A stretch of 64,000 bases of DNA, from the NCBI GenBank assembly GCA_025358455.1, contig JANYJP010000093.1:1-64000 (forward strand), in the 5' to 3' direction. The notes beneath the pieces are model-generated. The model had not been told where the DNA came from. It made no database searches and worked only from the letters and a program-made list of their open reading frames with translations. The position numbers and the translations under genes are program-made. The stretch is from Bacteroidales bacterium (lineage in GTDB: Bacteria; Bacteroidota; Bacteroidia; Bacteroidales; VadinHA17). Positions 33,814 to 52,664 of this stretch are shown piece by piece; the stretch's first letter is position 1; each line of letters starts with the position of its first letter.

Positions 33814-36752
33814 GGCTTTGTAATATTGATTCCAATATTTATTGTTCCCATAAGCACTCCTTTGTCATCTAAAAGTTTATGTGCTGACCATTCAATCTGG
33901 AGGGTATCTCCATTTACTGCTCTAACAATGTTTTTATACCTGTTTGGCAATTTTCCATTGAGCAATTTTGTCATATCAGCCAATACTTGTTTACGTGATG
34001 GTTCCGGGATGAACAGGTCAACATAATTTTTACCTATTACATCGTTTAGTTTATGCCCAAAAAGTTTTTCGGCTTCCGGGTTATACTCGATTATTATTCC
34101 CTCGGATGATAAGCCTATTATTACGCCAGGCACTACAGAAATGAATGATTTAAGCGTCAATTGCGACTCTCGCAGGATCATTTCCTGCTGTTTTGATCTG
34201 GTAATATCTATAAAGGTGATAACCAGCCCATCAATCTTATCATCATTTGTCCGGTAAGGCATAATACGTATACTAAACCATCTTCCATCATGGGTTTCAA
34301 CGGCTTTCTCAAGAATTATAAGAGTATGTAATACTTCACTGGCGTCCCTGTACAAATCGGGATAGTCCAGATCAGTAACCTGATCAGTAAACAACCTGCC
34401 GACATCACTTTGTCTTAATTTGAAAATTTTAGTTGCCTGATGAGTGAACTGACGGATCTTTAGATTTTTATCGAGAAACAGGGTCGCTATTTCGATACTA
34501 CCAAGCAGGTTACTCATATCATTGCTCAATCTAACAGAATCCTCAATTCTATTTTGCAATTCAATATTCACTGTATGTAATTCTTCATTAAGACTCTGCA
34601 TCTCTTCCTTGGACGTTGTGAGCTCTTCGTTGGTTGATTGCAGTTCTTCATTGGTTGATTGTAGCTCCTCATTGGTAGACTTCAATTCTTCCTGGGAAGT
34701 CTGCATCTCTTCACGGAGACTCTGAAGGTCTTCCTTCTTATGCTGCAGGTCAAGCTCCAATTCGGAATGAAATGTTCTTTTTAAACCTTTCCCGGTTTTT
34801 AACTCCGTAGATACATGGTTCACAATTGGTACATCAGCAAAAACTATCAGTATCCTCCCTTTCAGTTGAGGTGGCTTTTCAATTTGCTGAATTGTAACAT
34901 CTGCATATCTGACTTCATTATTTGATCCCATTTTCAGATTGTGTAATACCACCTTATCATAACTCTTAGTTGCTTTATGGAAGACTAAAGGCAACTCATC
35001 GCTCAATCCTTCCCTTGCCATGGCAAAAATGTTCATATTTGCTTTGCCTGCAGCCGGCTCAAGATATTTTCCGGTACTTCCTGTTATATAGAGTATATCT
35101 CCCAGATTTGTTACCAGAACACTGGAAGGTGAAAATTGCTGCAAAAGCAACTGGTCAGTAAAAAATTGGATATTATTAGGAATATTCGCAGGTGTTTGAT
35201 CTTCAACTTTTCCCAATTTATAGCGGGAGAACGAACTTGGAAAGTCATATAATTCCTCTGTTTTGGATGATCCCAAACTACGATAGATTCTTAATTTTGA
35301 GTTAATAACGGAAACCAATTCATTTTGAGTTCCATTGGTTTCAGCACTGCCCAGTAACAATATTCCCCCCGGATTAAGGCTGTAATGGAAAAGGGTCAGA
35401 AGTTTTTTCTGCAGTCCGGCATCCAAATATATCAACAGGTTACGGCAGGAGATAATATCAAGTTTGGTGAAAGGAGGATCTTTAATCACATTTTGAGGGG
35501 CAAATACAACCATGTCGCGTATCTCTTTATTCACACGATACTGATCGTTAACTTTAGTAAAAAATCTACTCAGACGATCCGGAGATACATCAGCAACAAT
35601 ACTTCGGGGATAAATGGCTTTTCTGGCTTTTTCAATTGCAGTGTTGTCAATATCTGTGGCGAATGCCTGCAACAATATATTCTTGCCATGGTTCGCCTTT
35701 TCCATAGCTTCCTTAAAAACCATTGCCAGTGAGAATGCCTCTTCTCCTGTAGAACAACCTGGTATCCAAACCCTGAGAATATATTTCTGCGGCAATTTCT
35801 CAATCAGTGACGGCATTATTTTTTCCTTTATTTCCTCCCACAGCAATGTATCGCGGAAGAAACTTGTGACACCGATCAATAGCTCTTTGAAAAGTATATC
35901 TATCTCATTAGAATTATCCTGTAAATAACGGACATATGATCCTATCTTATTGATTTGGTGAATACCCATGCGCCGTTCAATACGCCGATACACGGTGTTT
36001 TTTTTATATTGCGAGAAGTCGTTACCGGTTTTTGTTCGTAATAGGATTACTATTTTTTCGAGTGAACTTACATCTTTCTCCAATACCAGTTTATTACTTA
36101 AGGGCAGATTCTGCTTACTAATAGCCATCAGTTTTGCCGGAAGTTCATCTGCAGGTGCAACAATATCAATAAGTACATTATCGATGGCAGACCTGGGCAT
36201 ACTATCGAACTTTGCAGAAGTTGGATCCTGTACCATTACTGTTCCTTCTTTTTCTTTTATAGCCGTCAATCCTAAAGTTCCATCAGAACCCATTCCGGAA
36301 AGGATAATCCCGATACTCTTTGCACCAAGGTCGTCAGCCAGTGAACGGAAAAAGAAATCTATTGGTAACCGCAAACCACGTGTTTCAACTGGCACAAACA
36401 AATGAAGAGAGCCATTAAGAACTGACATACTTTTGTTTGCAGGTATTACATACACACAGTTTGGTTTGATTTTCAATCTGTCGGTTACCGTTTGCACTTT
36501 CATTCCTGTAACACGTTGAAGCAGTTCAGTCATAATGCCCTTATGATTTGGATCGAGGTGTTGAATAACAACAAATGCCATTCCGCTGTTCACCGGCATT
36601 TTTGCAAAGAACTGTTCCAATGCCTCCAATCCACCTGCTGATGCACCAATACCGACTATGGGAATTTTACCTGCTGCATTAACAGTGGTTCTCTTCAATT
36701 TTAAATTTTCAGGATCAGCATTTGTAATTTCTGACCTGGGTTGCTTTTTCAT
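33810..36752 (-). CDS. CheB-CheR fusion protein with coiled coil and PAS domains
   Basis: GIGASAGGLEALEQFFAKMP, VWIPGCSTGEEAFSLAMVF, STNEELQSTNEELQSTNEEL coiled coil. Confidence 0.95.
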   Translation of the reverse strand: MKKQPRSEITNADPENLKLKRTTVNAAGKIPIVGIGASAGGLEALEQFFAKMPVNSGMAFVVIQHLDPNHKGIMTELLQRVTGMKVQTVTDRLKIKPNCVYVIPANKSMSVLNGSLHLFVPVETRGLRLPIDFFFRSLADDLGAKSIGIILSGMGSDGTLGLTAIKEKEGTVMVQDPTSAKFDSMPRSAIDNVLIDIVAPADELPAKLMAISKQNLPLSNKLVLEKDVSSLEKIVILLRTKTGNDFSQYKKNTVYRRIERRMGIHQINKIGSYVRYLQDNSNEIDILFKELLIGVTSFFRDTLLWEEIKEKIMPSLIEKLPQKYILRVWIPGCSTGEEAFSLAMVFKEAMEKANHGKNILLQAFATDIDNTAIEKARKAIYPRSIVADVSPDRLSRFFTKVNDQYRVNKEIRDMVVFAPQNVIKDPPFTKLDIISCRNLLIYLDAGLQKKLLTLFHYSLNPGGILLLGSAETNGTQNELVSVINSKLRIYRSLGSSKTEELYDFPSSFSRYKLGKVEDQTPANIPNNIQFFTDQLLLQQFSPSSVLVTNLGDILYITGSTGKYLEPAAGKANMNIFAMAREGLSDELPLVFHKATKSYDKVVLHNLKMGSNNEVRYADVTIQQIEKPPQLKGRILIVFADVPIVNHVSTELKTGKGLKRTFHSELELDLQHKKEDLQSLREEMQTSQEELKSTNEELQSTNEELQSTNEELTTSKEEMQSLNEELHTVNIELQNRIEDSVRLSNDMSNLLGSIEIATLFLDKNLKIRQFTHQATKIFKLRQSDVGRLFTDQVTDLDYPDLYRDASEVLHTLIILEKAVETHDGRWFSIRIMPYRTNDDKIDGLVITFIDITRSKQQEMILRESQLTLKSFISVVPGVIIGLSSEGIIIEYNPEAEKLFGHKLNDVIGKNYVDLFIPEPSRKQVLADMTKLLNGKLPNRYKNIVRAVNGDTLQIEWSAHKLLDDKGVLMGTINIGINITKP

Positions 36753-36828: not shown

Positions 36829-38742
36829 CTACAGGTTTTCTTTAACTATAGATACAAACTTGTTTTTAACAAATGGTTTGGAAATAAATCCCGAACATCC
36901 GGATCTTAGAGCCTCTGCGCCATCATCTGCATACGCTGTCTGCGCAATGATCTTCATATGAGGCCTTTTCTTCAGTATTTGTCTGGTTGCTTCATATCCA
37001 TCCATAAAAGGCATTTTAACGTCCATAAGAACAAGATCAATTATTTGTCCTGATTCAAATGCATCTACAGCTTCAATGCCGTTTGAAGCCCTGATTATCT
37101 TAATATTAAGATCTGATAATAATTCCTTCATCAGATAAAAATTATTATCATCATCTTCAGCAATCAGAACTGATTTCTTGGTGGTAATTATTCCCGTTTC
37201 ATTCCTAATAATTTTCATTTCCAGATTGATTTGGCGATTTGACGGGTTATAAGGAATTGTAAAATAGAAAGTGGTACCTTTTTGTGTTTGAGATGTCAGC
37301 CAGATCTTACCACCCAAAAATTCCACATATGCCCTGGATATGGTAAGCCCAAGACCAGTACCTTCATACTGTCTCGATGTTGAGTTCTCTACCTGGTAAA
37401 AGCGGTCAAAAATCTTTGAATACTGATGTTCAGATATTCCAATGCCCGTATCTGACACAAAAAATTCAATGTTTTCGTTTATCAGTTTGTACCCGAATTC
37501 AATATGTCCATGCTCAGTAAATTTAAATGCATTGCTCAAAAGATTTGATAGAATTTGAGTCAATTTTGAACTATCTGTGTGTATGTCAGCAGCATTAAAA
37601 GAAAGTGAAGTTTCAAGCCTGAATTCAATCTCTTGTTCCGCAGCTTTCAGATTGAATTGTTTAAAGAGGATATTAAGCTGTGCATTCAGGTTAATCTCAT
37701 CCAGATTTGATTTCAATGTACCAACTTCAATATTGGATATTTCAACAATATCATTAACTATGGCAAGTAACTGATCACTGCTCTGTGTAATAATATCAAT
37801 ATAGGAACGCTGGGTTTCCTGAGACAGATCCGGTTCATTTAAAATGGCTGAAAAACCAACTATAGCATTCATCGGAGTACGAATCTCGTGAGAAATATTA
37901 TGCAGAAATGCTGTTTTGAGCCGATCGTTTTCCTCAGCTTTTTCTTTGGCTTTAATTAATTCAATTTCAACAAGTTTTCTTTCCGTGATATCTCTGATAA
38001 TAGTCTGAACAGCAGGTTTTCCCATATATTTAACAGGGAATCCGATAACCTCAACATCAAAAATATCGTTATTAAGATTAATAAACTTCTCCTCAACATA
38101 ATCAAGCGGCTTCCCGGTTTTAATAATTTTTTTTATTCTGTTACGGGCAGTTTCCTTATAATCGGCATGAACGAAAGAAATTATGTCAAGATTCTTAATC
38201 CTCTCCAGGGAATCAACCCCGAGAAATCTTAATGCTGTGGGATTTGCATACAGAATTCCCTCCCGGGAGTACACAATAATTGCATCAGGTGAAAGATCAA
38301 TCATCAACCTGTAGTTCTCTTCACTCTCCCTCATCATTTTTTCTGCAATATCCTTTTGCAGAATTAATCCTCGCTTCTTTATTGCAGATTTAATTGCTTC
38401 ACCCAATCTGGATAGATTCTTTTTTATAATATAGTCATCAGCACCTGCTTTCATGCAATCAACAGCAACTCTTTCATTTATTGAAGCAGTAACCAGAATA
38501 AAAGGTACTGAAGGAGCAATATCATTCCTGATATTCAGAGCATCCATTCCATTATATTCAGGAAGCGAATAACCTGAAATAATAATATCGGGGTTAAAGG
38601 TGCCTAATGCTTCAATATAATCAACTTTCATCTTTACAAGCTTCCTTATAAATTGAATTTTATCACTTTCTATCTGATGCCAGGTAATTTCAGCATCAGA
38701 AATACTTTCTTCAATGAATAGAATCTTTAATTTCTCTTCCAT
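36829..38742 (-). CDS. Hybrid receiver-PAS-histidine kinase-receiver protein
   Basis: N-terminal receiver, FLHNISHEIRTPMNAIVGFS, GTGLGLTISRAYVEFLGG, C-terminal receiver VLMDVKMPFMDGYEATRQI. Confidence 0.93.
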   Translation of the reverse strand: MEEKLKILFIEESISDAEITWHQIESDKIQFIRKLVKMKVDYIEALGTFNPDIIISGYSLPEYNGMDALNIRNDIAPSVPFILVTASINERVAVDCMKAGADDYIIKKNLSRLGEAIKSAIKKRGLILQKDIAEKMMRESEENYRLMIDLSPDAIIVYSREGILYANPTALRFLGVDSLERIKNLDIISFVHADYKETARNRIKKIIKTGKPLDYVEEKFINLNNDIFDVEVIGFPVKYMGKPAVQTIIRDITERKLVEIELIKAKEKAEENDRLKTAFLHNISHEIRTPMNAIVGFSAILNEPDLSQETQRSYIDIITQSSDQLLAIVNDIVEISNIEVGTLKSNLDEINLNAQLNILFKQFNLKAAEQEIEFRLETSLSFNAADIHTDSSKLTQILSNLLSNAFKFTEHGHIEFGYKLINENIEFFVSDTGIGISEHQYSKIFDRFYQVENSTSRQYEGTGLGLTISRAYVEFLGGKIWLTSQTQKGTTFYFTIPYNPSNRQINLEMKIIRNETGIITTKKSVLIAEDDDNNFYLMKELLSDLNIKIIRASNGIEAVDAFESGQIIDLVLMDVKMPFMDGYEATRQILKKRPHMKIIAQTAYADDGAEALRSGCSGFISKPFVKNKFVSIVKENL

Positions 38743-38782: not shown

Positions 38783-38850
38783 TAAAGATACTGACAAGGT
38801 CACGCAGCATTATTACATAATAATGTAACAGAGTTGTATGATTCACACAT
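38783..38850 (-). promoter_or_regulatory. Regulon promoter P1 (hybrid kinase / CheB-CheR operon)
   Basis: Gene orientation: ATGTGTGAATCATACAAC-N12-TTATGTAAT-N21-TATCTTTA; 42 nt between the 18-mer and the -7 box. Confidence 0.75.
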
Positions 38851-38886
38851 TCTGATCCGGGAAGGGAGGTGGTCAATATTAAGGTT

Positions 38887-41880
38887 TTACAGCCCGGAGC
38901 TCAATTTTAAACTGTTAAAGGAATTGAGGTTAAGAACAAATCGTATCCTGTCCTTTACAGTACCCCTGATTGATCCGATGTTTGAGGAAACTATTAAAGG
39001 GACATAGATTTCGAATACATTCCAAAAACCGGCCTTAAAACCAGCTTCATAAAAAATGGGGGAATTATGACCATTACCCGTACCATGATCATTTAACAGG
39101 ATATTTACAAACGGCTTGATCGGGATCCTTCCGGCGTTTCCCGGAAAATTACTTGTGAATGAAAATGAAACCATGTAGTGGCTGTACCCAAGGCTATCAT
39201 TAACCGGGGATACCAGCCCTCCTTCCGATAAAGTCATCTGCCTCGACCAGAATGTTTTCGGAAATACGCTGAAACGGTCAAAATAATTGCCATCGAAGAG
39301 GTATTGTTCCCGGCCACTTCTTCCTGAGGGAGAAAAATCATAAAACGGTACTTCATTACTTTCCTTCAGCATTGTTCCTGTAAAGATCCTCATATCCAAA
39401 CCACTTTTTTCCCCGTAATAACTAATTTTATAATTGAACTCAACTGCAGCCTTCTGATACGAATTACCAGATTCAATAGAAGCCCGCAGACTAAATGGAT
39501 TGATCGGTCCGGTCTTTTCCAGTTGATATCCAAACTGACTATAATACTTACTTTTTAATTCTGAATGGAGTTCAATCTGAAAAAGGTCCGATGCTACAAT
39601 ATAATAACCAAATACTTTCTGGCTTAAAGAATTATTGATTTTGATATTTCGGAAATACAGGTCTAACCCAAGCTTTGCCCTGATATAATTTTGAATTCCC
39701 GGTGTGCCATATTGAGTTCCTTCGATAGAGATTGCTGCCATCCTGATAAAATTATCATAGGGCGTAATGTTGTACGAAACCTTTCCCTCTCCGGCAATGT
39801 CTGTATCCTTAACTTTATAGAATGGGGTAAGGTTATATTCAATAGACTTGGGCAATTGCAGCTTGTTATAAAGATTTATACCTAACATAAACCCATCCTC
39901 TTTTGTCCAGTTAACAGCAGGAAACCATATCAGAGATCTTTTGTCAGGATCTTCCACGGTATTAAGGAGATATAACTTCAACGGATCCGATTTTCGGAAA
40001 ATACCTGAGGTATGGATGTTATTATTGAGCCGGAACAGTTCCGGCATTACATGCTCCCGGTCGATTATTATCTCAGAATATTCTCCAAAAGGAATATCTA
40101 TCCATCTGGAACCCATAAAACCCGTCTCCCATTTTTCAAATTTTATCGAATCGCCTCTTATCCCTGATATTACCAGGGGTGAAGCCAGTTCACCCCTGTT
40201 TTTTACCAGCAGCCGGTGGTTTTCAAGCCGCACTACTTTGTAATCAATTCGTTTTACCGTATTCAGAAAATCATTAAAGAACCATGATAATTTTTTATCG
40301 GTATGGGATTCAAATATATTTTTAAGATCCTCAGGCTGAGGATGTTTTGATTTCCATCTGGAATAATAATCGTGCATTATTGAATCAAAAACAGAATCCG
40401 AGAGGTAGGCTCTCATGTAATTGAAACCAAGTGCAGCTTTATTATAAATGATATCTGTATAATTCAAAACACTATAGTCGGGTGCAGGCAGATTAATTGG
40501 CTGCTCCAGGTTACTTCTTGCCTGAATAAGCCATTCAAGTTCCGGCATTCGTTCTACAGGTATGTTATCGATATGGAACAGCTTTGCCAGTTTCTGGTTT
40601 TTAAAATAAACTTCCCAGAGCTTCTTTCCCGGATATCTCTCTTTCATATATCTCATCTCATAAGAGCTGGTAATGGATTCATCCATATATGGATAACGGC
40701 GTTCATCGGATCCAAGTGAACTATAAAACCAACTATGGCAAATTTCATGAGCAATAACCTCATCAAGATTGTAGGCATCATCAACATGGCCAACAATTGT
40801 TATGCCGGGGTACTCCATCCCGTCTCCTGCCGTCAAGGCACTTTGAACTGCAGTAAATGTATTATATGGATAGTCCCCTATCCATCCGGAAAAAAGCTCA
40901 ATGGCACCTTTCACATATTGCAAGGCATCGTTCCATAGTCCGGCCTGTTCGTTTGTAAACATTGTCCATATTGTGATTTCCCTTCCGGAATCAGGAAGTT
41001 TTAATTTTCCTTTCATAACGTGGAATCGTTTATCCGCAAACCAGGCAAAGTCATGAATATTGTTACCCGAATAATTTAATGTTTTCATCTTATGTGAAGA
41101 AACCGGGAAATAATTATTTGAATAACCGAGAGTAATTTTCCATGAAGTATCAGCAGCGAGTTTATCCAGCATTTCAATTTCGCCTATATTCTCCAGGTCT
41201 CCTGTGGCTCCAACAATATAATTTGCCGGAAGTGTAATGCCAACATTATAACTTCCAAATTCTGAATAAAACTCCCCCTGATCAAGATATGGCATCTGGT
41301 GCCATCCTGACCTGTCGTATACTGCCGGTTTTGGATACCATTGCGAAATCTGATATGATTCCCCGATATGACCAAGACGGGAAGTAACTCCTTTTGGTAT
41401 TTTTACATGAAAAGGAGTTGATATTTTTATTGAGTCGCCAGGGTTTAGGTTTTCAGTAAGTATGATCTTACAAATGTCAGGCTGGCCGGGCAGCAGGTTC
41501 CATAGAACCCTCCTGTCAGCTACCTTAAAGTCCAGAGAATCAATATACCCTCTGAGTTGAAAATCATTGAATAATTTTGCTTTACCTTTCCATGTGAATA
41601 GCTGTTTAGCTAAATCCGTATTATTACCCGAATAGGCATTAGGCCAGAGATGAAAGTATAGAAATTTCAGGGTATCGGGTGAATTATTGATATACCCGAT
41701 TGTTTCATATGCATTTAATTCATGTAGCTTATCATTAAGAGTAACATGAATCTCATAATTTACCTTCTGCTGAAAATACTCTTGTGATGAAGCCTGTAAT
41801 GCAGGCCAGATGGTCATCAGGCAAGTGAGCGGAAATAGCCTTCTATGCAATAAAGGCTTTTTAAATTTTAAATATTTCAA
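38887..41880 (-). CDS. M1-family metallopeptidase
   Basis: AGDGMEYPGITIV, VIAHEICHSWFYSSLGSDERRYPYMDES (HExxH). Confidence 0.92.
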   Translation of the reverse strand: MKYLKFKKPLLHRRLFPLTCLMTIWPALQASSQEYFQQKVNYEIHVTLNDKLHELNAYETIGYINNSPDTLKFLYFHLWPNAYSGNNTDLAKQLFTWKGKAKLFNDFQLRGYIDSLDFKVADRRVLWNLLPGQPDICKIILTENLNPGDSIKISTPFHVKIPKGVTSRLGHIGESYQISQWYPKPAVYDRSGWHQMPYLDQGEFYSEFGSYNVGITLPANYIVGATGDLENIGEIEMLDKLAADTSWKITLGYSNNYFPVSSHKMKTLNYSGNNIHDFAWFADKRFHVMKGKLKLPDSGREITIWTMFTNEQAGLWNDALQYVKGAIELFSGWIGDYPYNTFTAVQSALTAGDGMEYPGITIVGHVDDAYNLDEVIAHEICHSWFYSSLGSDERRYPYMDESITSSYEMRYMKERYPGKKLWEVYFKNQKLAKLFHIDNIPVERMPELEWLIQARSNLEQPINLPAPDYSVLNYTDIIYNKAALGFNYMRAYLSDSVFDSIMHDYYSRWKSKHPQPEDLKNIFESHTDKKLSWFFNDFLNTVKRIDYKVVRLENHRLLVKNRGELASPLVISGIRGDSIKFEKWETGFMGSRWIDIPFGEYSEIIIDREHVMPELFRLNNNIHTSGIFRKSDPLKLYLLNTVEDPDKRSLIWFPAVNWTKEDGFMLGINLYNKLQLPKSIEYNLTPFYKVKDTDIAGEGKVSYNITPYDNFIRMAAISIEGTQYGTPGIQNYIRAKLGLDLYFRNIKINNSLSQKVFGYYIVASDLFQIELHSELKSKYYSQFGYQLEKTGPINPFSLRASIESGNSYQKAAVEFNYKISYYGEKSGLDMRIFTGTMLKESNEVPFYDFSPSGRSGREQYLFDGNYFDRFSVFPKTFWSRQMTLSEGGLVSPVNDSLGYSHYMVSFSFTSNFPGNAGRIPIKPFVNILLNDHGTGNGHNSPIFYEAGFKAGFWNVFEIYVPLIVSSNIGSIRGTVKDRIRFVLNLNSFNSLKLSSGL

Positions 41881-41982
41881 AAATCAATTGGTTTTCGCAA
41901 CTCCGGTTCATGAATAACCAAAGTTAAAAGAAGTTATTGAGGTTCAGCTTATCGGACCTCAGTTTTTTCAACTCAATGTAAA

Positions 41983-42153
41983 TTACGACTCAATTATGAT
42001 ATTGAGTATTTCTTCTTCGGTTTTTCCAAGCTTTTCTTTCAGTCTTTCAAGCATCTTATATTCTTTTCCTACCCTATAATCCAAATCTCTATTGGTAATC
42101 CCAATAAATTTTTGTCTTATTTTATCCTTCTTTTTATCCCAATTTATTTTCAT
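41983..42153 (-). CDS. CsbD-like small stress protein
   Basis: Trimmed start MKINWDKKKDKIRQKFIGITNRDLDYRVGKEYKMLERLKEKLGKTEEEILNIIIES. Confidence 0.75.
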   Translation of the reverse strand: MKINWDKKKDKIRQKFIGITNRDLDYRVGKEYKMLERLKEKLGKTEEEILNIIIES

Positions 42154-42203
42154 AGCTAATGATTTAAGTTCATACCTCACACGAAAGAGGAAATCGACCT
42201 GGA

Positions 42204-42271
42204 TAAAATTACAGTAAATGATAAAAACAGATGTTATATAATTTTACCTAAGAATTACATAATTCCCACAT
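42204..42271 (-). promoter_or_regulatory. Regulon promoter P2 (CsbD-like gene 41983)
   Basis: ATGTGGGAATTATGTAAT-N12-TTATATAAC-N21-TAATTTTA. Confidence 0.75.
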
Positions 42272-42374
42272 TTAATTCTTCATAAGCATCATATCTTCTT
42301 GTTGTTACAGGCTTACCTTTTAATCCATTACGCTTTAAGAGGTTCAAACGCGTTAATTTATGCTAATGGTGGTT

Positions 42375-42404
42375 TGAAAAAAGAGCCGGTCAAAATGGCC
42401 GGCC
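42375..42404 (-). terminator. Intrinsic terminator of the YXWGXW/Q-rich gene operon
   Basis: Minus strand GCCGGCCA-TTT-TGACCGGC (one mismatch) followed by TCTTTTTTC. Confidence 0.7.
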
Positions 42405-42434
42405 TGATTAACTAAATTCCTGTTAATGTTTATC

Positions 42435-43658
42435 TTAGTTCTGCTTATTACCCTCGTCTTTCTTTTTAATCTTCTCAGGATTGTTAGCTTTATTCTGTTG
42501 TCTTTCCAGCCTTCTGGTACGGGCCGGTGTTGATTTAACCTGCTGATTCTGTTGATCTTTTTGCTGAACTGATTGTCCCTGTTGCTGAACCTGTCTCCGG
42601 GTATCAGTTTGTTGTTTCTGGTTCTGCTGCTGTTGTTCAACGTTTTTCTGCTGCTGTTGCTGTTGTTCTGCATTCTTCTGTTGCTGCTGTCTTTGTTCAA
42701 CATTTTGCTGTTGCTGCTGTTGCTGTTGAACCTCTATATTCTTCTTCTGCTGCGGATCCTGTTCCCGGCGTTGCATTTGTTGCTGTTGCTGACTTTGAAC
42801 AGGTTGAGATTGTTTAACATTATTTCGCCGGCTATTAGAAGCATTTCTTTCAGCTGGCGGACGAACATCCTTAGCGTCCATTATCCTTGCCGGAGCCGGT
42901 CCTTGTCGTGAATCATTACTGCGTTCCACTTTAGGACGGTAAAGCTGTAACTGATTATTGCTAAGCCTCTGTCCGGGTCTGTCGTTATCACGGATAGCAA
43001 CGCTACTTATCCTTCTACCTGTAGCGATCTGAATATCATTGCTTCGTGGTCCTGAAATGTAAGTGACATTCCGGCTATTATCTACGTATGTGTTATTTAT
43101 TACTGTGGAACTTCTGATTATAAAATCATTATCTCTTCTGTTAACATAATACCTGCCCAGGTTGCGTCTGTCAAAATCCCTGTCCCGAACAAAGTTCCAC
43201 CGGTCTGCATCGTTGTAACCACCTCCGAAACTCATGCTTACGCTGATTCCCGGTCTCATCGGAGCCCAACCGTAATAACCATTACCCCGTCTCCATGTTA
43301 CCCATGACGGACCCCATTCATTATCAGGTACCCAGAACCAGCCATAATAATTATCATAATCCCAGCGCCCATAATGAAAAGGAGCCCAGCCCCAGTCATA
43401 ATCTGATACCCAGGTCCAGCCATAATCCGTCATTACCCAATGTCCTTCTGTAGAATACGGAGCGAAATCAGAACCGACATCCGGAATCCAGATGTAACCA
43501 TAATCCTGGTTATTGACCCATTGGCCATAGGGACTTAGCTGATCATAAAAAACCTGAAAACTTACATATCCCTGTTGTGCCGATACCACCTTTTGATTGA
43601 TAAGGGAAATAGTTAGCGACAAAAAGACGATTGTAAAAATTTTAACTACAGTCTTCAT
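42435..43658 (-). CDS. YXWGXW-repeat (DUF6600-like) secreted protein with Gln-rich C-terminus
   Basis: Signal peptide; YGQWVNNQDYGYIWIPDV, YGWTWVSDYDWGWAPFHYGRW; about 100-aa poly-Q-rich tail. Confidence 0.85.
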   Translation of the reverse strand: MKTVVKIFTIVFLSLTISLINQKVVSAQQGYVSFQVFYDQLSPYGQWVNNQDYGYIWIPDVGSDFAPYSTEGHWVMTDYGWTWVSDYDWGWAPFHYGRWDYDNYYGWFWVPDNEWGPSWVTWRRGNGYYGWAPMRPGISVSMSFGGGYNDADRWNFVRDRDFDRRNLGRYYVNRRDNDFIIRSSTVINNTYVDNSRNVTYISGPRSNDIQIATGRRISSVAIRDNDRPGQRLSNNQLQLYRPKVERSNDSRQGPAPARIMDAKDVRPPAERNASNSRRNNVKQSQPVQSQQQQQMQRREQDPQQKKNIEVQQQQQQQQNVEQRQQQQKNAEQQQQQQKNVEQQQQNQKQQTDTRRQVQQQGQSVQQKDQQNQQVKSTPARTRRLERQQNKANNPEKIKKKDEGNKQN

Positions 43659-43695
43659 CGTGGGAAGATTAACTTAATTATTAATACTATGTACA

Positions 43696-44121
43696 TTAAT
43701 ACTGTGTACCGGCCGATTCCTGTTGCATTCTGTTTTCGATGTTTTCGGAAACAAGAGTTAAAAGAAAAGCTGTTTCTTCAACCGAATCAAAACTGTACTG
43801 TATTTTTTCATCCAGAGTCAAAAGTTCACCCTTGCCAAGAGTTATTGATTCTTCTTTGATATGCAACATTAATTTCCCTTCCAATACCTGAAAGGTAACT
43901 GAGTCATTTGCCTGAAAAGACAAAACTTCTGTTCCCTCATGTAAAACAGTAAGCATAACTTTCTTTACCGGACTTTTTAAGAGGATTACTGAATTTAGTT
44001 CTCCTTTTTTCCAGGTATGCTCATGCTTCATGTTTTCTATCATTGTGGGTATATCCAATGCAGAAAATGGGATATTAAATGATCCGGAATTATTATTTAA
44101 TAATGCTGTTGTTTTCAACAT
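43696..44121 (-). CDS. Small cupin-like protein
   Basis: 141 aa; LTVLHEGTEVLSFQANDSVTFQVLEGKLMLHIKEESITLGKGELLTLDEKIQYSF. Confidence 0.65.
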   Translation of the reverse strand: MLKTTALLNNNSGSFNIPFSALDIPTMIENMKHEHTWKKGELNSVILLKSPVKKVMLTVLHEGTEVLSFQANDSVTFQVLEGKLMLHIKEESITLGKGELLTLDEKIQYSFDSVEETAFLLTLVSENIENRMQQESAGTQY

Positions 44122-44160
44122 CTTCTTTTCAGTTTAAGTATAATAACAGGAACTCACCCG

Positions 44161-44493
44161 TCAAATCAGAAGAAGAATAAGAATTATTAGCAGCAGGGTA
44201 CCGCCACCAATATAAATTACTCCTCCGTTTCTCTTAACATTCTCTTTAATCGATTTAAGTTCTTTCCTCATCACCCGTTTTTCTTTGACTGTCATATTGG
44301 TTTTATCCATGTCGCGTATTTCTTCAACACGTTTAGTTAAACGACTGATCTCTTCATCAGTTAATTTATTTTCTTTTTTATCCGGGATTGCCAGATTATC
44401 TGAAATACGTTTAACATCTGATTTTGCTGCAAATGCAGTTGATGCACTTAATGATATGATCATAAAGCATACGATAAAAATCATTCTTTTCAT
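44161..44493 (-). CDS. Small membrane protein with signal peptide and C-terminal TM helix
   Basis: 110 aa, MKRMIFIVCFMIISLSASTAFA ... VIYIGGGTLLLIILILLLI. Confidence 0.7.
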   Translation of the reverse strand: MKRMIFIVCFMIISLSASTAFAAKSDVKRISDNLAIPDKKENKLTDEEISRLTKRVEEIRDMDKTNMTVKEKRVMRKELKSIKENVKRNGGVIYIGGGTLLLIILILLLI

Positions 44494-44529
44494 TTTCTGA
44501 ATTTTTTAAAGTGATTAATAATTAAAAAA

Positions 44530-44597
44530 TAAAGGTACTCTTCGAACCTCTGCTACACCTTATACAATTTCTTAAATTAATTACATAATTCACACAT
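44530..44597 (-). promoter_or_regulatory. Regulon promoter P3 (44161 / cupin / YXWGXW operon)
   Basis: ATGTGTGAATTATGTAAT-N12-TTGTATAAG-N21-TACCTTTA. Confidence 0.75.
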
Positions 44598-44770
44598 ACA
44601 AATCATTTCTGATTTATAATTATTCCTGTCGGCTTGTTTAAAAGACTATATATAAGACGCTGTATCTAATCAAAAGAGAATTCATTTTCTAAAGGCCTGA
44701 TAAGAAAAATAAAAATCAGGGTCATTTTACAGAAAACGATCCATTCAAAATGGAATCAATATTGAAGCTG

Positions 44771-44968
44771 TCAAAGTTTGGTAATTAACTCATAAAGCTC
44801 GTGCTTGGTCTTGCCAACTTTTGATTGAAGCCTGGATAACATTTCACCCATTTTACCCTGTTCAAAATACAAATCCTTATCAGTCAGAGTTGAAAATTTC
44901 ATCTTTAGTTTCTCTGTCTGTTCTTTCCAGTTAATCGTTGCTCTGGTCTTTACATTTACCTTTGACAT
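44771..44968 (-). CDS. CsbD-like small stress protein
   Basis: INWKEQTEKLKMKFSTLTDKDLYFEQGKMGEMLSRLQSKVGKTKHELYELI. Confidence 0.75.
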   Translation of the reverse strand: MSKVNVKTRATINWKEQTEKLKMKFSTLTDKDLYFEQGKMGEMLSRLQSKVGKTKHELYELITKL

Positions 44969-45011
44969 ATCTTTAATTATTAAATTCAGGAATCTATAAA
45001 TTTATACGAAC

Positions 45012-45079
45012 CAAAGTTCATAATGATTAAATTAACTATTGTTACAAAACTTAAATAAAAAGTTACATATTTCACACAT
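45012..45079 (-). promoter_or_regulatory. Regulon promoter P4 (CsbD-like gene 44771)
   Basis: ATGTGTGAAATATGTAAC-N12-TTTTGTAAC-N21-GAACTTTG. Confidence 0.75.
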
Positions 45080-45140
45080 TTCCAGGTTTTAATAGAGTCA
45101 ACTTACCTTAATGACAATTAGTTGTTTATTTAAATACCGG

Positions 45141-45818
45141 TTACATTGGCTCAATCACTATTGAATTTTTCTCGACACCAAGATGTTCCAGATACCCGAT
45201 TACGCTTTCCATCATTGGGGGAGGACCACACATGTAAAATTGTTTATCAAAACCGGAAATATTAGTTTTCAAAAAATCCTCACTTATATTGCCGAAATTA
45301 TATTCAGTTGTTTTTTCATCCGATAAAATATTAATAAAACTTTCGCCTAATAACTCTTTCAATTCTTTTTCAAGAATGATGTCATTTTTGGTCTTATTGG
45401 CAAATATCAGCGAGTTACCAATCAATTTGCCTCTCGAACCCTGGTCTCTGAAAATTGAAATGAAAGGGGTAATACCTGCCCCACCGGCTATGAATACTCC
45501 GGAGCTTTTGAAGTTAATTTCTCCAAAAACCTCGTGCAATATCAGTTCATCATTCCTTTTCAACTGATGTATGGCATCTGTTACCCCTTTGTGCTGCGGA
45601 TACCTCTTTATTATAAATTCCAGGTAAGGTGAAGAAGTCAGACTTGTAAATGTAAATGGTCTTTTCTCTTCTCTGAGGGCCGGCGTATTGACAGACACGT
45701 CTGTTGCCTGTCCCGGAATAAATGTATATCCCTCAGGTCTTTCCACCCTGAAATACTTTACATCGTGAGTGATAAAGTCTGTATCGAGAATTCTTACAAT
45801 AAATCCTTGTAGCATCAT
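45141..45818 (-). CDS. FAD/NAD(P)-binding flavodoxin/ferredoxin reductase-like oxidoreductase
   Basis: EEKRPFTFTSL, FIAGGAGITPFISIFRDQ, FYMCGPPPMMESVIGYL. Confidence 0.88.
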   Translation of the reverse strand: MMLQGFIVRILDTDFITHDVKYFRVERPEGYTFIPGQATDVSVNTPALREEKRPFTFTSLTSSPYLEFIIKRYPQHKGVTDAIHQLKRNDELILHEVFGEINFKSSGVFIAGGAGITPFISIFRDQGSRGKLIGNSLIFANKTKNDIILEKELKELLGESFINILSDEKTTEYNFGNISEDFLKTNISGFDKQFYMCGPPPMMESVIGYLEHLGVEKNSIVIEPM

Positions 45819-45880
45819 AAATTCACCTTAGTATTTAGTTAAACCATCAAGTGCGTTCGGGTATGAACTGCAGTTAAGGA

Positions 45881-46024
45881 TCAAAGCTTCTTCATCCTGT
45901 TCCTGAATTTCTCTTTATCCTTTAAAGAGTTATTCTCCTGTTTAGGCTTTGGATAATAAAATGCTCCCTTTTTATGGCTTTTATATATTGTAATAAAATC
46001 TAAAGCAATCTGAACTTTTTTCAT
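45881..46024 (-). CDS. 47-aa basic small protein, probably first gene of an operon with the oxidoreductase
   Basis: MKKVQIALDFITIYKSHKKGAFYYPKPKQENNSLKDKEKFRNRMKKL*; lies 3' of promoter P5; absent from the ORF track because of length. Confidence 0.5.
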   Translation of the reverse strand: MKKVQIALDFITIYKSHKKGAFYYPKPKQENNSLKDKEKFRNRMKKL

Positions 46025-46097
46025 ACTGACTATTAATAAGTTTTACAGCTTGTTTGCTATCTGAAAATTTATGATTCAAACTGTATTATTGAAACCT

Positions 46098-46165
46098 CAA
46101 ATATGATAACCTTTCTTAGGTTAATGGTTACATAACTTTTAATATTCGTTACATAATTCACACAT
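46098..46165 (-). promoter_or_regulatory. Regulon promoter P5 (small ORF / oxidoreductase)
   Basis: ATGTGTGAATTATGTAAC-N12-TTATGTAAC-N21-CATATTTG. Confidence 0.78.
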
Positions 46166-46296
46166 GAAAACTTGTTGCAAAAAGGTTAGTTTATTATTTT
46201 GTATTTCTTTAATATTTCTAACGAATCCGTCAGGATATACTGGTATTAAAACTGCTTAATCTGCTGCCTTCAAAACATCTTAAGACGCGAAGAAAA

Positions 46297-46364
46297 ATGT
46301 GTGAATTTTATAACTTTTTTCTAAAGTTGTATAACATATTAAGACTTAAGATTTTTCACTTTTA
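46297..46364 (+). promoter_or_regulatory. Regulon promoter P6 (isochorismatase gene)
   Basis: ATGTGTGAATTTTATAAC-N12-TTGTATAAC-N21-CACTTTTA. Confidence 0.72.
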
Positions 46365-46508
46365 CAGTCGGATAAGACGAAGATGTTATACGTTTAAATA
46401 AGAACTATTAGTGACGTTCCTTGTGTCTCTGCGCTTATATTGATTAATAACATTGTAATTGGTTAAGAAGAGACAATGATTAGTTTAATAAATTAAAAGT
46501 AATAAGAC

Positions 46509-47141
46509 ATGGAAAATTCAAAAACAGATTTCGTAACAGTTCTTAACAGCATCCTTCTTTTGATAGATTACCAGACAAACATTATTAATGGTATAGCATC
46601 GGGTGACAGAACAGAAATAAAAAAAGCTGTTGTTGCTTCTGCAAGAGCTGCGGGCATTCTTAATGTCCCAATAGTAATGACCTCTATCAATACAAAAGAA
46701 AATGGCGAGGTAATAAAAGAACTCCGAGATCTGTTTCCGGGAAAGGAAGTAATAACCCGGTTGCTTCCGCTTCCTGATGCTTTTGAAGATGAAAGGGTAC
46801 TTCAGGCTGTAAGGAAGAGCGGACGGCAAAAGCTGGTTATAGCTGGTTTATGGACTAGTACATGTTTTGCCAATACAGCTATTCATGCCATACAAGATGG
46901 GCTTGATGTTTATGGTTTGATTGATGCTGCAGGCGACACAACCCTTGAAGCTCATAATTCGGGTGTACAGAGAATGCTTGAAGCAGGCGTGACTCCTATA
47001 ACATGGATGTCGCTCACGGCCGAATGGATGAATAGCGGGTCAAATTCTGATGAAAGGGAAGTAACCAATGAATCATATGGAAAATATAGTGCGATGCTAT
47101 CCTATTTAGCAAATCAACAACCATTAGTCCACTATAAATAA
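46509..47141 (+). CDS. Isochorismatase-family hydrolase
   Basis: LLLIDYQTNIING, IAGLWTSTCFANTAIHAIQDGLDVYGLIDAAGDT. Confidence 0.9.
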   Translation: MENSKTDFVTVLNSILLLIDYQTNIINGIASGDRTEIKKAVVASARAAGILNVPIVMTSINTKENGEVIKELRDLFPGKEVITRLLPLPDAFEDERVLQAVRKSGRQKLVIAGLWTSTCFANTAIHAIQDGLDVYGLIDAAGDTTLEAHNSGVQRMLEAGVTPITWMSLTAEWMNSGSNSDEREVTNESYGKYSAMLSYLANQQPLVHYK

Positions 47142-47165
47142 AACCAAACATTGAATTGATCTAAA

Positions 47166-47233
47166 ATGTGTGGAATATATAATACTTCAACAAATTTATA
47201 TAATATATATGTGGGATAGTGATCATACATTTG
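47166..47233 (+). promoter_or_regulatory. Regulon promoter P7 (CsbD-like gene 47264)
   Basis: ATGTGTGGAATATATAAT-N12-TTATATAAT-N21-TACATTTG (perfect TAnnTTTG). Confidence 0.75.
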
Positions 47234-47263
47234 CGACATATATTTCATTAAAATAAATCAAAA

Positions 47264-47476
47264 ATGACCGGTAATATATCCACAAAATCACCTGATGAAG
47301 GTAAATGGATTGAGCAAAAAGACAGGCTCAGGCAAAAATTTTCCGATCTTACTGATGAAGACCTTGAATTCGAACCTGGCAGCATGAGTATGATGTTCGA
47401 AAAACTAAAGGTTAAACTTGGAAAGTCCAAGGAAGATATGCACAAGTTTATCGAATATTTAAGCCAGATTTTTTGA
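47264..47476 (+). CDS. CsbD-like small stress protein
   Basis: GKWIEQKDRLRQKFSDLTDEDLEFEPGSMSMMFEKLKVKLGKSKEDMHKFIEYL. Confidence 0.75.
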   Translation: MTGNISTKSPDEGKWIEQKDRLRQKFSDLTDEDLEFEPGSMSMMFEKLKVKLGKSKEDMHKFIEYLSQIF

Positions 47477-47484
47477 TAGTTTAA

Positions 47485-47778
47485 AATGATATCATCGAAA
47501 AACTGAGTAAAAAACCTGGTCACGATTACTCTTATCTTGCTAACCTTTTCCTGGAAGTTCAGAGCACTACAATTGAAAAATATATTATAATACAAAAGAT
47601 TGAACGGGCAAAAGAATTGCTTATTTATTATAGGTTGAATCTAACTGAAATTGTTTATCAGTTAAACTTTAATAATATTCCTCAGTTCTCCGGCCACTTT
47701 AAGGAAGTCACCGGCCTTACTCCTTCCCAATATCAGAAAATCAGCCACATACAACATGCTGTACAGGCGAATGTGTGA
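47485..47778 (+). pseudogene. AraC-family C-terminal DNA-binding domain remnant (no in-frame ATG)
   Basis: Frame from 47485: NDIIEKLSKKPGHDYSYLANLFLEVQSTTIEKYIIIQKIERAKELLIYYRLNLTEIVYQLNFNNIPQFSGHFKEVTGLTPSQYQKISHIQHAVQANV*; an in-frame TAA at 47482 blocks extension. Confidence 0.8.
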
Positions 47779-47838
47779 ATAATGTAACTTATTCCAAAAG
47801 TTATGTAACAGTTATTTATGTAAAGGGAATCACCTTTG
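47771..47838 (+). promoter_or_regulatory. Regulon promoter P8 (upstream of 48135 or an unannotated transcript)
   Basis: ATGTGTGAATAATGTAAC-N12-TTATGTAAC-N21-CACCTTTG. Confidence 0.72.
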
Positions 47839-48134: not shown

Positions 48135-48773
48135 ATGGAAAACGGAATAACTACAGTAGGCACAGAAATAAACACAAGGCAGAGTGTAAATGGGAGTTTT
48201 TTCCTGAGTGATTACCCGGTTGATGTTACAGGAAGAAATCCTATCCTCGAAAAACTGGCCGTTGAAGGCCATCAAAGTCTTATGGATTATGTTACCTGGG
48301 TGGGTCTTGCAAAGGATCCTAATGTGATTGTACTCTCTTCTTCACACCATTATTATTATGATGCAGAAGATTTGAAAGAGATTACAACTGTTTTGAATCT
48401 GAAACAACTTAACCATATTAAAGAAATTAAGGATTTTCTCCATACTGTTTATCATATGATTTCTTATAAAAGTTATTTTGTCGGAAGTTTTGTTGACAGA
48501 AAAAATCAGTTTGGATTGTTTTCAGATACCAACACCTTTCAGCATGGGTTATCCGGAACCGCTGATCAATTAGAGAATGGCATTACATCAAGAATTCCAT
48601 TCGTTAATATGATGTATAACATAATGGACTCCAAAACTAACAGGAACCTAACAAAAAAGACTGTCTCATTACTTTTAGAGGATGCAGGTCTTAAGGTTCT
48701 GGATATGAGTGAAATTAACGGACTTACTTGTTTTTGCGCACAGAAAATAAAGACCTCCGCGGGGTATGAATGA
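48135..48773 (+). CDS. Hypothetical protein upstream of the exopolysaccharide genes
   Basis: 212-aa ORF, no antisense competitor of comparable length. Confidence 0.65.
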   Translation: MENGITTVGTEINTRQSVNGSFFLSDYPVDVTGRNPILEKLAVEGHQSLMDYVTWVGLAKDPNVIVLSSSHHYYYDAEDLKEITTVLNLKQLNHIKEIKDFLHTVYHMISYKSYFVGSFVDRKNQFGLFSDTNTFQHGLSGTADQLENGITSRIPFVNMMYNIMDSKTNRNLTKKTVSLLLEDAGLKVLDMSEINGLTCFCAQKIKTSAGYE

Positions 48774-48840: not shown

Positions 48841-50292
48841 ATGGATATCTTTGTAACCCTATATCGCCTCCACATCATTCCCTTCCTTAAAAAGTGGAAT
48901 CTTCTGAATTATATTCTGGGTTCAATTGATATTTTTGCGATTACATTAGCATTCCAGTGCACATATTTTATTTATTTCTCGGGTCAGGGCGGTTTATTTT
49001 TTACTGACCGGTTCTATTTAATTCATTTTTTGTGGATTCTCCCTCTCTGGCTCCTGATACTTTACTTTATAAAAGTTGCAGAAATTCCGCGTACAAAACG
49101 CTACAGGGTTCTGTTTATTGAATATCTGCAATCTGCAATAGTACTTTTCATTCTTTTAACATTTGTATATTTTGTATTTAAACTTTACATAATACCCCGG
49201 TTATTCCTGACAGAATTTACATTCCTTGGATTTCTGTTTCTGTTTATTTCAAGATTAGTTGAGTACAAAGCCTTTAAAAGCTATAGAGCGAAGGGCTATA
49301 ACAGGATAAATATAGTTCTGATAGCTGACGAAACTTCAGAACCATTCATTGAAAGCCTTTTGTCAAACAAGGAATGGGGTTACAGGATCTTTACTATTTT
49401 CACCGAATCGACTTCAATAAAAGATAAGTATGAAAAGAAAATTATAATACTCCCCGGAAAATTTGTGAAAGTATTAAGTGACCTGATGGAAGTTGATTTG
49501 ATTGATGAGGTACTTTATTTAAAAGGTAAAGTTAATCCGGCCGAAGTCAGAGAAATAATAAGATCATGTGAAGAATTGGGAGTTACATTTAAACTTAAAC
49601 TTAAAGAGAGTAAAATCAAACTTACCAATGCTTTCAAGACGAAAATTGCTGATGAAAAATTTTTGACATTCATTAATGTTCCTCACAACCCATATTCACT
49701 GGCGCTGAAAAAAATAATGGATATTTTCATTTCACTTTTAGTAATAATTGTTTTGTCACCTATCTTCATAATTGTTGGATCAATAATTAAATTAACATCA
49801 CCTGGCCCCATTATTTTCAGACAGGCACGCGTAGGATTAAGAGGACGCCAGTTTTTCCTGTACAAATTCAGGACTATGGTTGCCAATGCTGAAGATATCC
49901 GTAAGCACCTGGGAGATAAGAACGAAGTAGATGGTCCCGTTTTCAAGATGAAAGATGATCCAAGAGTAACAAAAATTGGCAAATTCCTGAGAAAATCAGG
50001 ATTGGATGAACTGCCACAACTTTTTAATATTTTAAAAGGTGAGATGTCATTGATAGGTCCGAGACCGCCACTCCAAAGCGAAACAGTACAGTATAAGCGC
50101 TGGCAGTTAAGACGATTGTCAGTTAAACCAGGGCTCTCATGTTTCTGGCAGATAAAACCTGAGAGGAACAATATCAGATTTGATAAATGGATGGAACTCG
50201 ATTTAGCTTATATTGATAACTGGTCGCTACGGTTGGATTTATTAATTCTTGTAAAAACAGTCGGAACCGTATTCAAGAGAAGCGGATTATAG
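48841..50292 (+). CDS. Exopolysaccharide biosynthesis polyprenyl glycosylphosphotransferase
   Basis: N-terminal TM region; FRQARVGLRGRQFFLYKFRTM, SGLDELPQLFNILKGEMSLIGPRPPL. Confidence 0.93.
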   Translation: MDIFVTLYRLHIIPFLKKWNLLNYILGSIDIFAITLAFQCTYFIYFSGQGGLFFTDRFYLIHFLWILPLWLLILYFIKVAEIPRTKRYRVLFIEYLQSAIVLFILLTFVYFVFKLYIIPRLFLTEFTFLGFLFLFISRLVEYKAFKSYRAKGYNRINIVLIADETSEPFIESLLSNKEWGYRIFTIFTESTSIKDKYEKKIIILPGKFVKVLSDLMEVDLIDEVLYLKGKVNPAEVREIIRSCEELGVTFKLKLKESKIKLTNAFKTKIADEKFLTFINVPHNPYSLALKKIMDIFISLLVIIVLSPIFIIVGSIIKLTSPGPIIFRQARVGLRGRQFFLYKFRTMVANAEDIRKHLGDKNEVDGPVFKMKDDPRVTKIGKFLRKSGLDELPQLFNILKGEMSLIGPRPPLQSETVQYKRWQLRRLSVKPGLSCFWQIKPERNNIRFDKWMELDLAYIDNWSLRLDLLILVKTVGTVFKRSGL

Positions 50293-50346
50293 AAATCGGA
50301 AATCAGAAATTGAGAAAATTATTAAGATTTATACAAGGGCACTACC

Positions 50347-51495
50347 TTAATCCAAGTAAGCTGCCAAAGCTGATTTCAAACCGTCTTCAAGATTTAATTT
50401 GTGGGTATACCCAAGTTTCCGCAAACGGGTAATATCAGTAACTTTTCGCATTGTACCATCCGGTTTTGACTCATCAAAAAATATTTCACCATTGAATCCT
50501 GTTAATCTTTTAATCTTCATGGCCAGCTCTTTAATGGAAATCTCCTCTCCTGTACCTATGTTTATGAAATGAGGAGGATGAAAATCAGGTTGATCCAACA
50601 ATTGATTCATCTTAATAATATCATTTATCTCTGCATTCTCCATGACATAAACACATGCTTCAGCCATATCGAGAGAGTACATAAACTCGCGTAAAGGAGT
50701 TCCTGTTCCCCATACATTTACAATTATCTGCTTTCCATCCTTACTGCTTCCAGTATCTGATAAATGTTCAGAAGCGGAATTTCTTCCTCTAATGGTTACC
50801 CCATACTTTTCAAGAATATTTAATATCGGTTCCTTTTCTGAATTTCCTGATATTTTCTCTATAGGATTTCTATCAAGATCTCTCCGAATTGCCTGCCAGT
50901 TATCATCCTCAAGACATTTACCAAGAAATATTTTTCTCATTAATGCCGGAAGTACATGTGATTTTTCAAGATTAAAATTATCTCCCGGTCCATAAAGGTT
51001 TGTAGGCATTACAGAAATAAAATTTGTTTTGTACTGCAGATTAAATGACTCACACATTTTCAACCCGGCAATTTTAGCAATAGCATATGGTTCATTTGTA
51101 AATTCAAGCGGTGAAGTCAAAAGATATTCTTCTTTCAAAGGCAGTGGGGCATTTTTCGGGTAGATGCAGGTTGATCCGAGAAACAGAAGTTTTTTTACAT
51201 TATATTTCCATGAAAAATATATAACATTACTCTGAATCGATATATTCTGATATATGAAATCTGCCCTGGTGGTATTATTAGCCATAATACCACCAACTAA
51301 AGCAGCAGCAAGGAATACATATTCAGGACGTTCTTTTGCAAAGAACTCGTCAACAGATTTTTGATCTAAAAGATTTAATTCTTCTAATGTTCTTAATATA
51401 AGATTATTATATCCTTTTTGTTCAAGGGTCTTTTTTATTGCCGAGCCTACAAGTCCCTTATGCCCGGCCACATAAATTTTCGATGATTTATTCAC
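50347..51495 (-). CDS. fcl: GDP-L-fucose synthase (long variant)
   Basis: VAGHKGLVGSAI, FLGSTCIYPKNAPLPLKEEYLL, NEPYAIAKIAGLKMCE. Confidence 0.9.
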   Translation of the reverse strand: MNKSSKIYVAGHKGLVGSAIKKTLEQKGYNNLILRTLEELNLLDQKSVDEFFAKERPEYVFLAAALVGGIMANNTTRADFIYQNISIQSNVIYFSWKYNVKKLLFLGSTCIYPKNAPLPLKEEYLLTSPLEFTNEPYAIAKIAGLKMCESFNLQYKTNFISVMPTNLYGPGDNFNLEKSHVLPALMRKIFLGKCLEDDNWQAIRRDLDRNPIEKISGNSEKEPILNILEKYGVTIRGRNSASEHLSDTGSSKDGKQIIVNVWGTGTPLREFMYSLDMAEACVYVMENAEINDIIKMNQLLDQPDFHPPHFINIGTGEEISIKELAMKIKRLTGFNGEIFFDESKPDGTMRKVTDITRLRKLGYTHKLNLEDGLKSALAAYLD

Positions 51496-51506
51496 AATAG
51501 TGCAAA

Positions 51507-52664
51507 TTATTCAAAATAGTTAAATGTACTGAAACCGCCTTTTCTGAGATAACTTTCCCTCTTCATCAGAACAATGTCTGAAGAAACCATATCTATAATT
51601 AATCCATCGAGGTCATATTCAGGTATCCATCCAAGTTTCTCATTAGCTTTTGTTGGGTCGCCAAGAAGAAGATCTACTTCTGTTGGCCGGTAATAAGCAG
51701 GGTCTATTTTCACAACAATGGGATTTTTCCCTGACCGTATTTTAAATTTTTCAAGATGGTCTTTCCCGACAGATTTAACAAACAGAGAATCATCTATATA
51801 TGTTATACTTCCTGTTTCATTCTCTTTTTCGCCTGAAAAGGTTAATTCAACTCCTATAGAAGCAAAAGACCTTCTTATAAACTCCCTGACTTCAGTTGTA
51901 ACTCCGGTGGCAATAACATAATCATCAGGTTTATCCATCTGTAGAATAAGGTACATTGCTTTAACATAGTCTTTGGCATGTCCCCAGTCCCTTTTTGATG
52001 AAAGATTTCCCATAAACAGGGTATCCTGCATTCCAAGCACAATCCGGGAGAGAGCCCTGGTAATCTTTCTGGATACAAATGTCTCTCCTCTTATTGGAGA
52101 TTCATGGTTAAAAAGGATGCCGTTACTTGCGTGTAATCCATAGGCTTCACGATAGTTTACAGTAATCCAGTAGGCATATAATTTGGCAACTGCATAAGGA
52201 CTGCGTGGATAGAAAGGAGTTTTTTCAGTCTGAGGAACTTCCTGTACCAGACCATAGAGTTCAGATGTGCTTGCCTGATAAATCCTGGTTTTATCTTTCA
52301 TCCCCAGAAGACGAACTGCTTCTAAAACGCGCAGAGTACCTATGCCATCAGTATTGGCTGTGTATTCCGGAACATCAAAACTTACTTTAACATGACTCAT
52401 TGCTCCAAGGTTATATATTTCATCCGGATGAGTTTCCTGAATTATCCGCGTAATATTCATAGAATCACTCAGATCGCCATAATGAAGGATGAAATTTCTC
52501 TTTTTTACATGTGGATCCTGATAAAGGTGATCAATCCTGTCAGTGTTAAATAGTGAGCTTCGCCGTTTTATACCATGTACAATGTATCCTTTCTTTAAGA
52601 GAAACTCTGCAAGATAGGCGCCGTCCTGACCTGTAATGCCTGTGATTAATGCTGTCTTTTCCAA
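51507..52664 (-). CDS. gmd: GDP-mannose 4,6-dehydratase
   Basis: [69 protein letters not shown]. Confidence 0.95.

Follow-up and report, generated by a model that had tools for sequence, protein, structure and literature searches.

Why should eight intergenic sites with one layout stand on both strands between positions 38,783 and 47,838 of a Bacteroidales contig, and which protein would act on them? The window, that is, the whole stretch of 64,000 nucleotides analysed here (GenBank assembly GCA_025358455.1, contig JANYJP010000093.1, positions 1 to 64,000), had been the subject of a preliminary description which took these sites for promoters of a candidate undescribed Bacteroidota regulon and named no regulator. 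Our analysis supports such a regulon. The motif, its spacing, the genome-wide set of sites, the types of their targets and the linkage to a regulator gene were all computed directly. We propose, with a probability of about 0.78, a dispersed stress-type regulon for which the eight sites serve as operators and which is activated by a dimer of a small protein with an HMA-like and an AraC-type domain (hereafter the HMA-AraC protein), acting as a class II activator.

The element and its predicted promoter

The eight 68-mers were found in the window sequence at the positions and on the strands previously given. They are listed below with leave-one-out scores, obtained for each held-out site with a matrix built from layout columns 1-42 only, which leaves the -7 box outside.

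38783-38850, minus strand: site 1, upstream of the hybrid kinase/CheB-CheR operon; score 26.1
42204-42271, minus strand: site 2, upstream of a small CsbD-like gene; score 33.6
44530-44597, minus strand: site 3, upstream of 44161-44493, the cupin gene 43696-44121 and the DUF6600 gene 42435-43658; score 30.0
45012-45079, minus strand: site 4, upstream of the CsbD-like gene 44771-44968; score 38.6
46098-46165, minus strand: site 5, upstream of a 47-aa open reading frame (ORF) and a NAD/FAD reductase gene; exact 18-mer; score 38.3
46297-46364, plus strand: site 6, upstream of an isochorismatase gene; score 41.3
47166-47233, plus strand: site 7, upstream of the CsbD-like gene 47264-47476; score 25.8
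47771-47838, plus strand: site 8, beginning inside the end of a regulator remnant and pointing to 48135-48773; score 39.4

With up to three mismatches, ATGTGTGAATTATGTAAC was matched at seven of the eight sites, against a chance expectation of 0.15, and none of 100 shuffled sequences gave seven matches. The held-out scores (25.8-41.3) are well separated from the top non-site in the window (11.7), so that the earlier statement that no comparable copy exists elsewhere in the window is correct; the reversed or complemented window reached a maximum of 14.0. A chance origin of the sites is ruled out by the shuffles, the reversed controls and the leave-one-out scores.

The layout had been called identical at all eight sites. 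This is loose, the exact 18-mer being present at 46098 alone and the site at 47166 being the most divergent. The element is also longer than the single 18-bp motif first proposed, which overlooked a second repeat at columns 31-39. Its columns read A-T-G-T-G-T-G-A-A-T-N-A-T-G-T-A-A-C, a free spacer, A-(A/G)-T-T-N-T-G-T-A-A-C, a second free spacer and A-N-N-T-T-T-(G/A). The TGTAAC direct repeats at columns 13-18 and 34-39 are exactly 21 bp apart, and a lag of 21 gave by far the highest self-similarity among all lags tested. The upstream half-site itself consists of two boxes one helical turn apart, GTGTG (columns 3-7) and TGTAA (columns 13-17). Conservation is limited to the half-sites and the -7 box, and the spacer is free.

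The -7-like box of the preliminary description is present at fixed spacing, and is better written A-N-N-TTT(G/A), the preceding T being weak. Its A falls at position 62 in 20 of 25 sites of the own genome and in 159 of 191 sites from relatives, a constancy that counts for the layout because the matrix covers columns 1-42 only. The predicted promoter has no clear -33 element, and the downstream half-site adjoins the -33 region. The box is of the type that the primary sigma factor of Bacteroidota uses. Since the -7 element TANNTTTG of Flavobacterium johnsoniae has its A at -11 (PMC6847099), the repeats would lie at about -60 to -55 and -39 to -34. Two direct half-sites about 21 bp apart, with the downstream one next to the -35/-33 element, are the layout of an AraC-like class II site.

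A dispersed set of sites and a candidate regulator

According to the preliminary description, a motif that was common in the genome and unrelated to gene starts would refute a regulon; a genome scan found it instead to be rare, located upstream of genes and with its -7 spacing kept. Outside the window, the own genome (G000) contains about 22 further sites, mainly on contigs C83, C12, C87, C107 and others, and 191 sites of the same layout were collected from relatives. Nearly all sites of the genome face a gene start (median distance from motif end to start, over own and relatives' sites, 65 nt), and the genes that follow them at similar distances, on both strands, are unrelated. The targets in the own genome encode, among others, CsbD-like proteins, DUF5670 with YtxH, ferritin, OmpA lipoproteins, an alpha/beta hydrolase, a DUF748 protein, a YXWGXW-type protein followed by DnaJ/CbpA, and Usp followed by PPK2. 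Among relatives, these or similar families appear again, with cupin (39 loci), CsbD (21 loci) and the regulator itself (14 loci), the cupin and regulator counts being too high, since the regulator was used to retrieve those loci; Dps/ferritin, YceI, OsmC, BON, DJ-1/PfpI, catalase and KaiC-like ATPases are encoded near or under their sites. Several own targets have site-bearing homologues in other members of the family, e.g., hydrolases of 75% identity and the 48135 family, and hybrid kinases or CheB-CheR proteins occur under sites in G098 and G209 as well as at site 1. The stress or envelope flavour noted previously thus extends to the genome and its relatives, and the broad set of stress-protective families resembles that of a general stress response. 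A second stress-gene island (G000:C83:60545-90811) comprises an intact regulator gene, at least six sites, ferritin, CbpA and YtxH. Separately, genes adjoining the regulon (L078 1-1016 and L072 16454-17654) were seen to contain a long tandem repeat (ELIIANKELVFQNEEKEKRAA; about 63 bp) that stays in frame.

The protein that we propose as the regulator has about 186 amino acids and combines a CopZ/HMA-like N-terminal domain with an AraC DNA-binding domain. The intact own copy (G000:C83:60545-61102, 186 aa) is followed by a site, at C83:61098, that starts in the last bases of the gene. Its DNA-binding domain is of the AraC type (HTH_18, E 1.8e-16), with the double helix-turn-helix of that family, and Foldseek matches its fold to AraC-family domains including E. 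coli AraC (2k9s). An AlphaFold model of the homologue from Draconibacterium orientale (pLDDT 86), together with Foldseek, points to a CopZ/Atx1-like N-terminal domain: the model has the ferredoxin-like beta-alpha-beta-beta-alpha-beta fold and matches CopZ, Atx1 and TTHA1718. At the sequence level, the NCBIfam CopZ match reached just E 0.027 and a Pfam scan of the regulator did not hit the HMA domain. The motif MxCxxC is found in the own copy and many homologues, the first Cys is replaced by Ser (MxSxxC) in others, and the second Cys is invariant in 44 aligned homologues.

Motif and regulator gene are physically linked. In 80 regulator-homologue loci from GTDB genomes (734 kb), we found 165 motif matches vs 0 in the reversed control. 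In about half of these loci the motif has one shared place, overlapping the regulator stop codon; in others it lies 53-56 nt upstream of the regulator gene, a position which suggests that the regulator is often autoregulated. The regulator stop TGA is embedded in the downstream operator (AATGTGTGAAT...) at L024 2054-2095 and in many of L090-L169, so that the operator itself encodes the protein's C-terminal end. Homologues of at least 65% identity have the motif within 700 bp in 82 of 98 cases and a P-type ATPase neighbour in 1 of 98, whereas the corresponding figures below 57% identity are 2 of 23 and 6 of 23. The two low-identity cases, L208 (2567-2608) and L210 (1964-2005), carry a variant operator of the same layout before a CopA-like P-type ATPase gene. 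In a tree, all 28 sampled motif-linked regulators that are not beside a P-type ATPase fall on one side of a branch with 100/99 support values, and the P-type-ATPase-linked paralogues on the opposite side. The system is present in cultured strains, e.g., Draconibacterium orientale, Prolixibacter bellariivorans, Chitinophaga ginsengisoli and Niastella caeni.

Co-occurrence points the same way. Among the 40 genomes of the family, the motif and a homologue at E<=3e-73 occur in precisely the same six (next best homologue, 6e-59), a coincidence whose hand-calculated chance is 1 in C(40,6), or 2.6e-7, relatedness ignored. It splits one genus, three other species of which have neither the motif nor a close homologue. 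Across the 247 genomes of the class, the motif occurs in 27 of 36 genomes with a homologue at E<=1e-65 vs 28 of 211 others (p 1e-13, relatedness again ignored).

From these data we infer that the HMA-AraC protein binds the site, activates transcription and receives a signal. A dimer would bind both half-sites and, by analogy with AraC at araBAD, would recruit RNA polymerase carrying the primary sigma factor through a contact at the -33 region; the role of class II activator fits because AraC dimers bind repeats spaced by 21 bp. Judged by its anatomy, the CopZ-like domain may sense a metal or a thiol/redox signal, as suggested by its one invariant Cys. The hybrid kinases and CheB-CheR proteins under sites (site 1, G098, G209) may belong to the output of stress signalling.

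Genes of the window

The window also contains a truncated copy of the regulator gene, whose overlap with site 8 the preliminary description had overlooked:

47485-47778, plus strand: HMA-AraC regulator remnant, 97 codons, C-terminal DNA-binding part only, 48% identical to G000:C83:60545-61102

Its stop TGA falls inside site 8 and a CsbD-like gene is adjacent; the arrangement looks like a decayed version of the unit of regulator, site and stress gene that is intact at G000:C83:60545. The predicted targets and operon members are as follows.

36829-38742, minus strand: REC-PAS-HisKA-HATPase-REC hybrid kinase, target of site 1
33810-36752, minus strand: CheB-CheR-PAS protein, likely in one operon with 36829-38742 (gap 76 bp)
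32164-33813, minus strand: PAS histidine kinase, likely in the same operon (4-bp overlap with the CheB-CheR gene)
41983-42180, minus strand: small CsbD-like protein, target of site 2; 65-aa ORF, ATG start likely nearer 42153
44161-44493, minus strand: 110-aa small membrane or secreted protein, target of site 3, with site-controlled homologues in relatives
43696-44121, minus strand: cupin-like protein (weak match, E 0.0043), likely in the site 3 operon
42435-43658, minus strand: DUF6600 (YXWGXW/Q-rich) protein, likely in the site 3 operon
44771-44968, minus strand: CsbD-like protein (CsbD match E 0.011), target of site 4
45881-46024, minus strand: 47-aa ORF, target of site 5
45141-45818, minus strand: FAD/NAD-binding oxidoreductase, downstream of site 5
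46509-47141, plus strand: isochorismatase-family hydrolase, target of site 6
47264-47476, plus strand: CsbD-like protein (remote), target of site 7
48135-48773, plus strand: family unassigned, likely target of site 8

The three CsbD-like targets announced earlier hold up only as remote similarities for the window's own copies; the product of 41983-42180 resembles site-controlled CsbD-like proteins of relatives. A look-alike of the DUF6600 protein in G278 carries its own site. For site 8, left previously between gene 48135 and a non-coding RNA, the gene is the most likely target, because in G274 a homologue of 39% identity is preceded, at 58 nt, by a site of its own. Elsewhere in the window, the sole Rfam match is part of a group II intron (RF02001) at 1-57, truncated where the window begins, and sugar transferase and nucleotide-sugar (GDP-mannose/fucose-type) genes beside the island (48841-52664) correspond, by their ORF sequences, to an exopolysaccharide locus.

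Alternative explanations and known systems

Several observations weigh against activation by the HMA-AraC protein. The co-occurrence p-values take no account of genome relatedness, and the regulator could be just a target of another protein. Five genomes bear sites and no close homologue, and it is mainly for this reason that our confidence is held at the value given above. In G209, which has at least 22 sites, no homologue was found, including by profile search; no regulator start follows its site at the C36 contig end, and inspection by eye of its two motif-rich contigs revealed kinases and response regulators and no AraC protein. G123 and G163 have sites and no homologue at significant score. 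The best that G091 and G153 offer are paralogues of about 45% identity from the metal-type side, near which the motif was not found. Regulator genes do occur at contig ends (G212), and assembly gaps may explain some of these exceptions, but probably not all. The first Cys being Ser in many close homologues weakens the idea of metal sensing, and the label 'stress' is taken only from the families of the targets. A real regulon in which another factor binds the motif, with the HMA-AraC gene merely a frequent member or neighbour, would accommodate the five genomes and the response regulators and kinases that recur among the targets. We nevertheless consider it unlikely: the repeat geometry is typical of AraC-family sites, motif presence tracks the protein down to species within one genus, the distant paralogues L208 and L210 have, next to their own gene, a variant operator that keeps this layout, and the single response regulator target tested has no DNA-binding domain in Pfam.

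An alternative sigma factor might instead recognise the motif as an extended promoter element, in which case it would not be an activator site; the constant spacing to the start region and the resemblance of the targets to those of general-stress sigma factors would suit this. Sigma factors, however, are not known to make contact as far upstream as -72 to -34, which is about where the conserved block lies, with its 21-bp direct repeat across two helical turns. The -7 box is of the primary type (PMC6847099), and the sites combine it with an upstream repeated site in a layout that is not sigma-like; the explanation is very improbable. Even less probable is a reading of the copies as leftovers of a mobile or duplicated repeat that plays no part in regulation. 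Clustering of the sites, and the uneven occurrence of both regulator and sites from species to species, would suit it, but only the half-sites and the -7 box are conserved around a free spacer, and unrelated genes follow the copies at a similar distance on either strand. Both explanations were rejected on spacing and conservation pattern. We lean slightly towards a broader scenario of a patchy but widespread general stress response of Bacteroidia, in which a one-component activator, evolved from copper or other metal-efflux regulators and carried in stress-gene islands, would replace an alternative sigma factor.

No earlier description of the motif or regulon, and no described general-stress regulator for Bacteroidota, was found in the open-access papers searched. 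A concrete operator, a promoter layout, a candidate regulator and a target list across several families, cultured strains included, make the coordination of stress protection in Bacteroidota a directly testable question and, if our proposal is true, give an example in which a metal-sensor-like regulator has come to control a global regulon.

AraC activators are already known; what is new here, to our knowledge, is that an HMA-AraC protein of Bacteroidota would govern a global regulon of the stress type. The system resembles E. coli AraC at araBAD, where class II activation from the I1-I2 half-sites is well established, in its AraC-type DNA-binding domain and in direct half-sites 21 bp apart, the downstream one adjoining the -35/-33 element. 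It differs in having a CopZ/HMA-like instead of a sugar-binding cupin N-terminus, a dispersed stress-type regulon and a Bacteroidota -7 promoter. With the sigma-S (RpoS), sigma-B and PhyR-EcfG responses, whose target families are well known, it has CsbD, YtxH, Dps/ferritin, OsmC, BON, Usp, catalase and CbpA-type DnaJ in common, whereas those responses use alternative sigma factors and the one described here would combine a primary-type promoter with a predicted upstream activator site. The distant HMA-AraC paralogues by CopA-like P-type ATPases in Bacteroidota have the same two domains and, in L208 and L210, an operator variant whose layout is unchanged, but lie across the 100/99 branch and have a local metal-transport target instead of a dispersed regulon. 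SoxS, MarA and Rob, which are small stress regulators of the AraC family, likewise control a stress regulon with an AraC DNA-binding domain positioned close to the promoter; SoxS and MarA, however, bind single sites as monomers, whereas the site described here is repeated and the candidate regulator has an added HMA-like domain.

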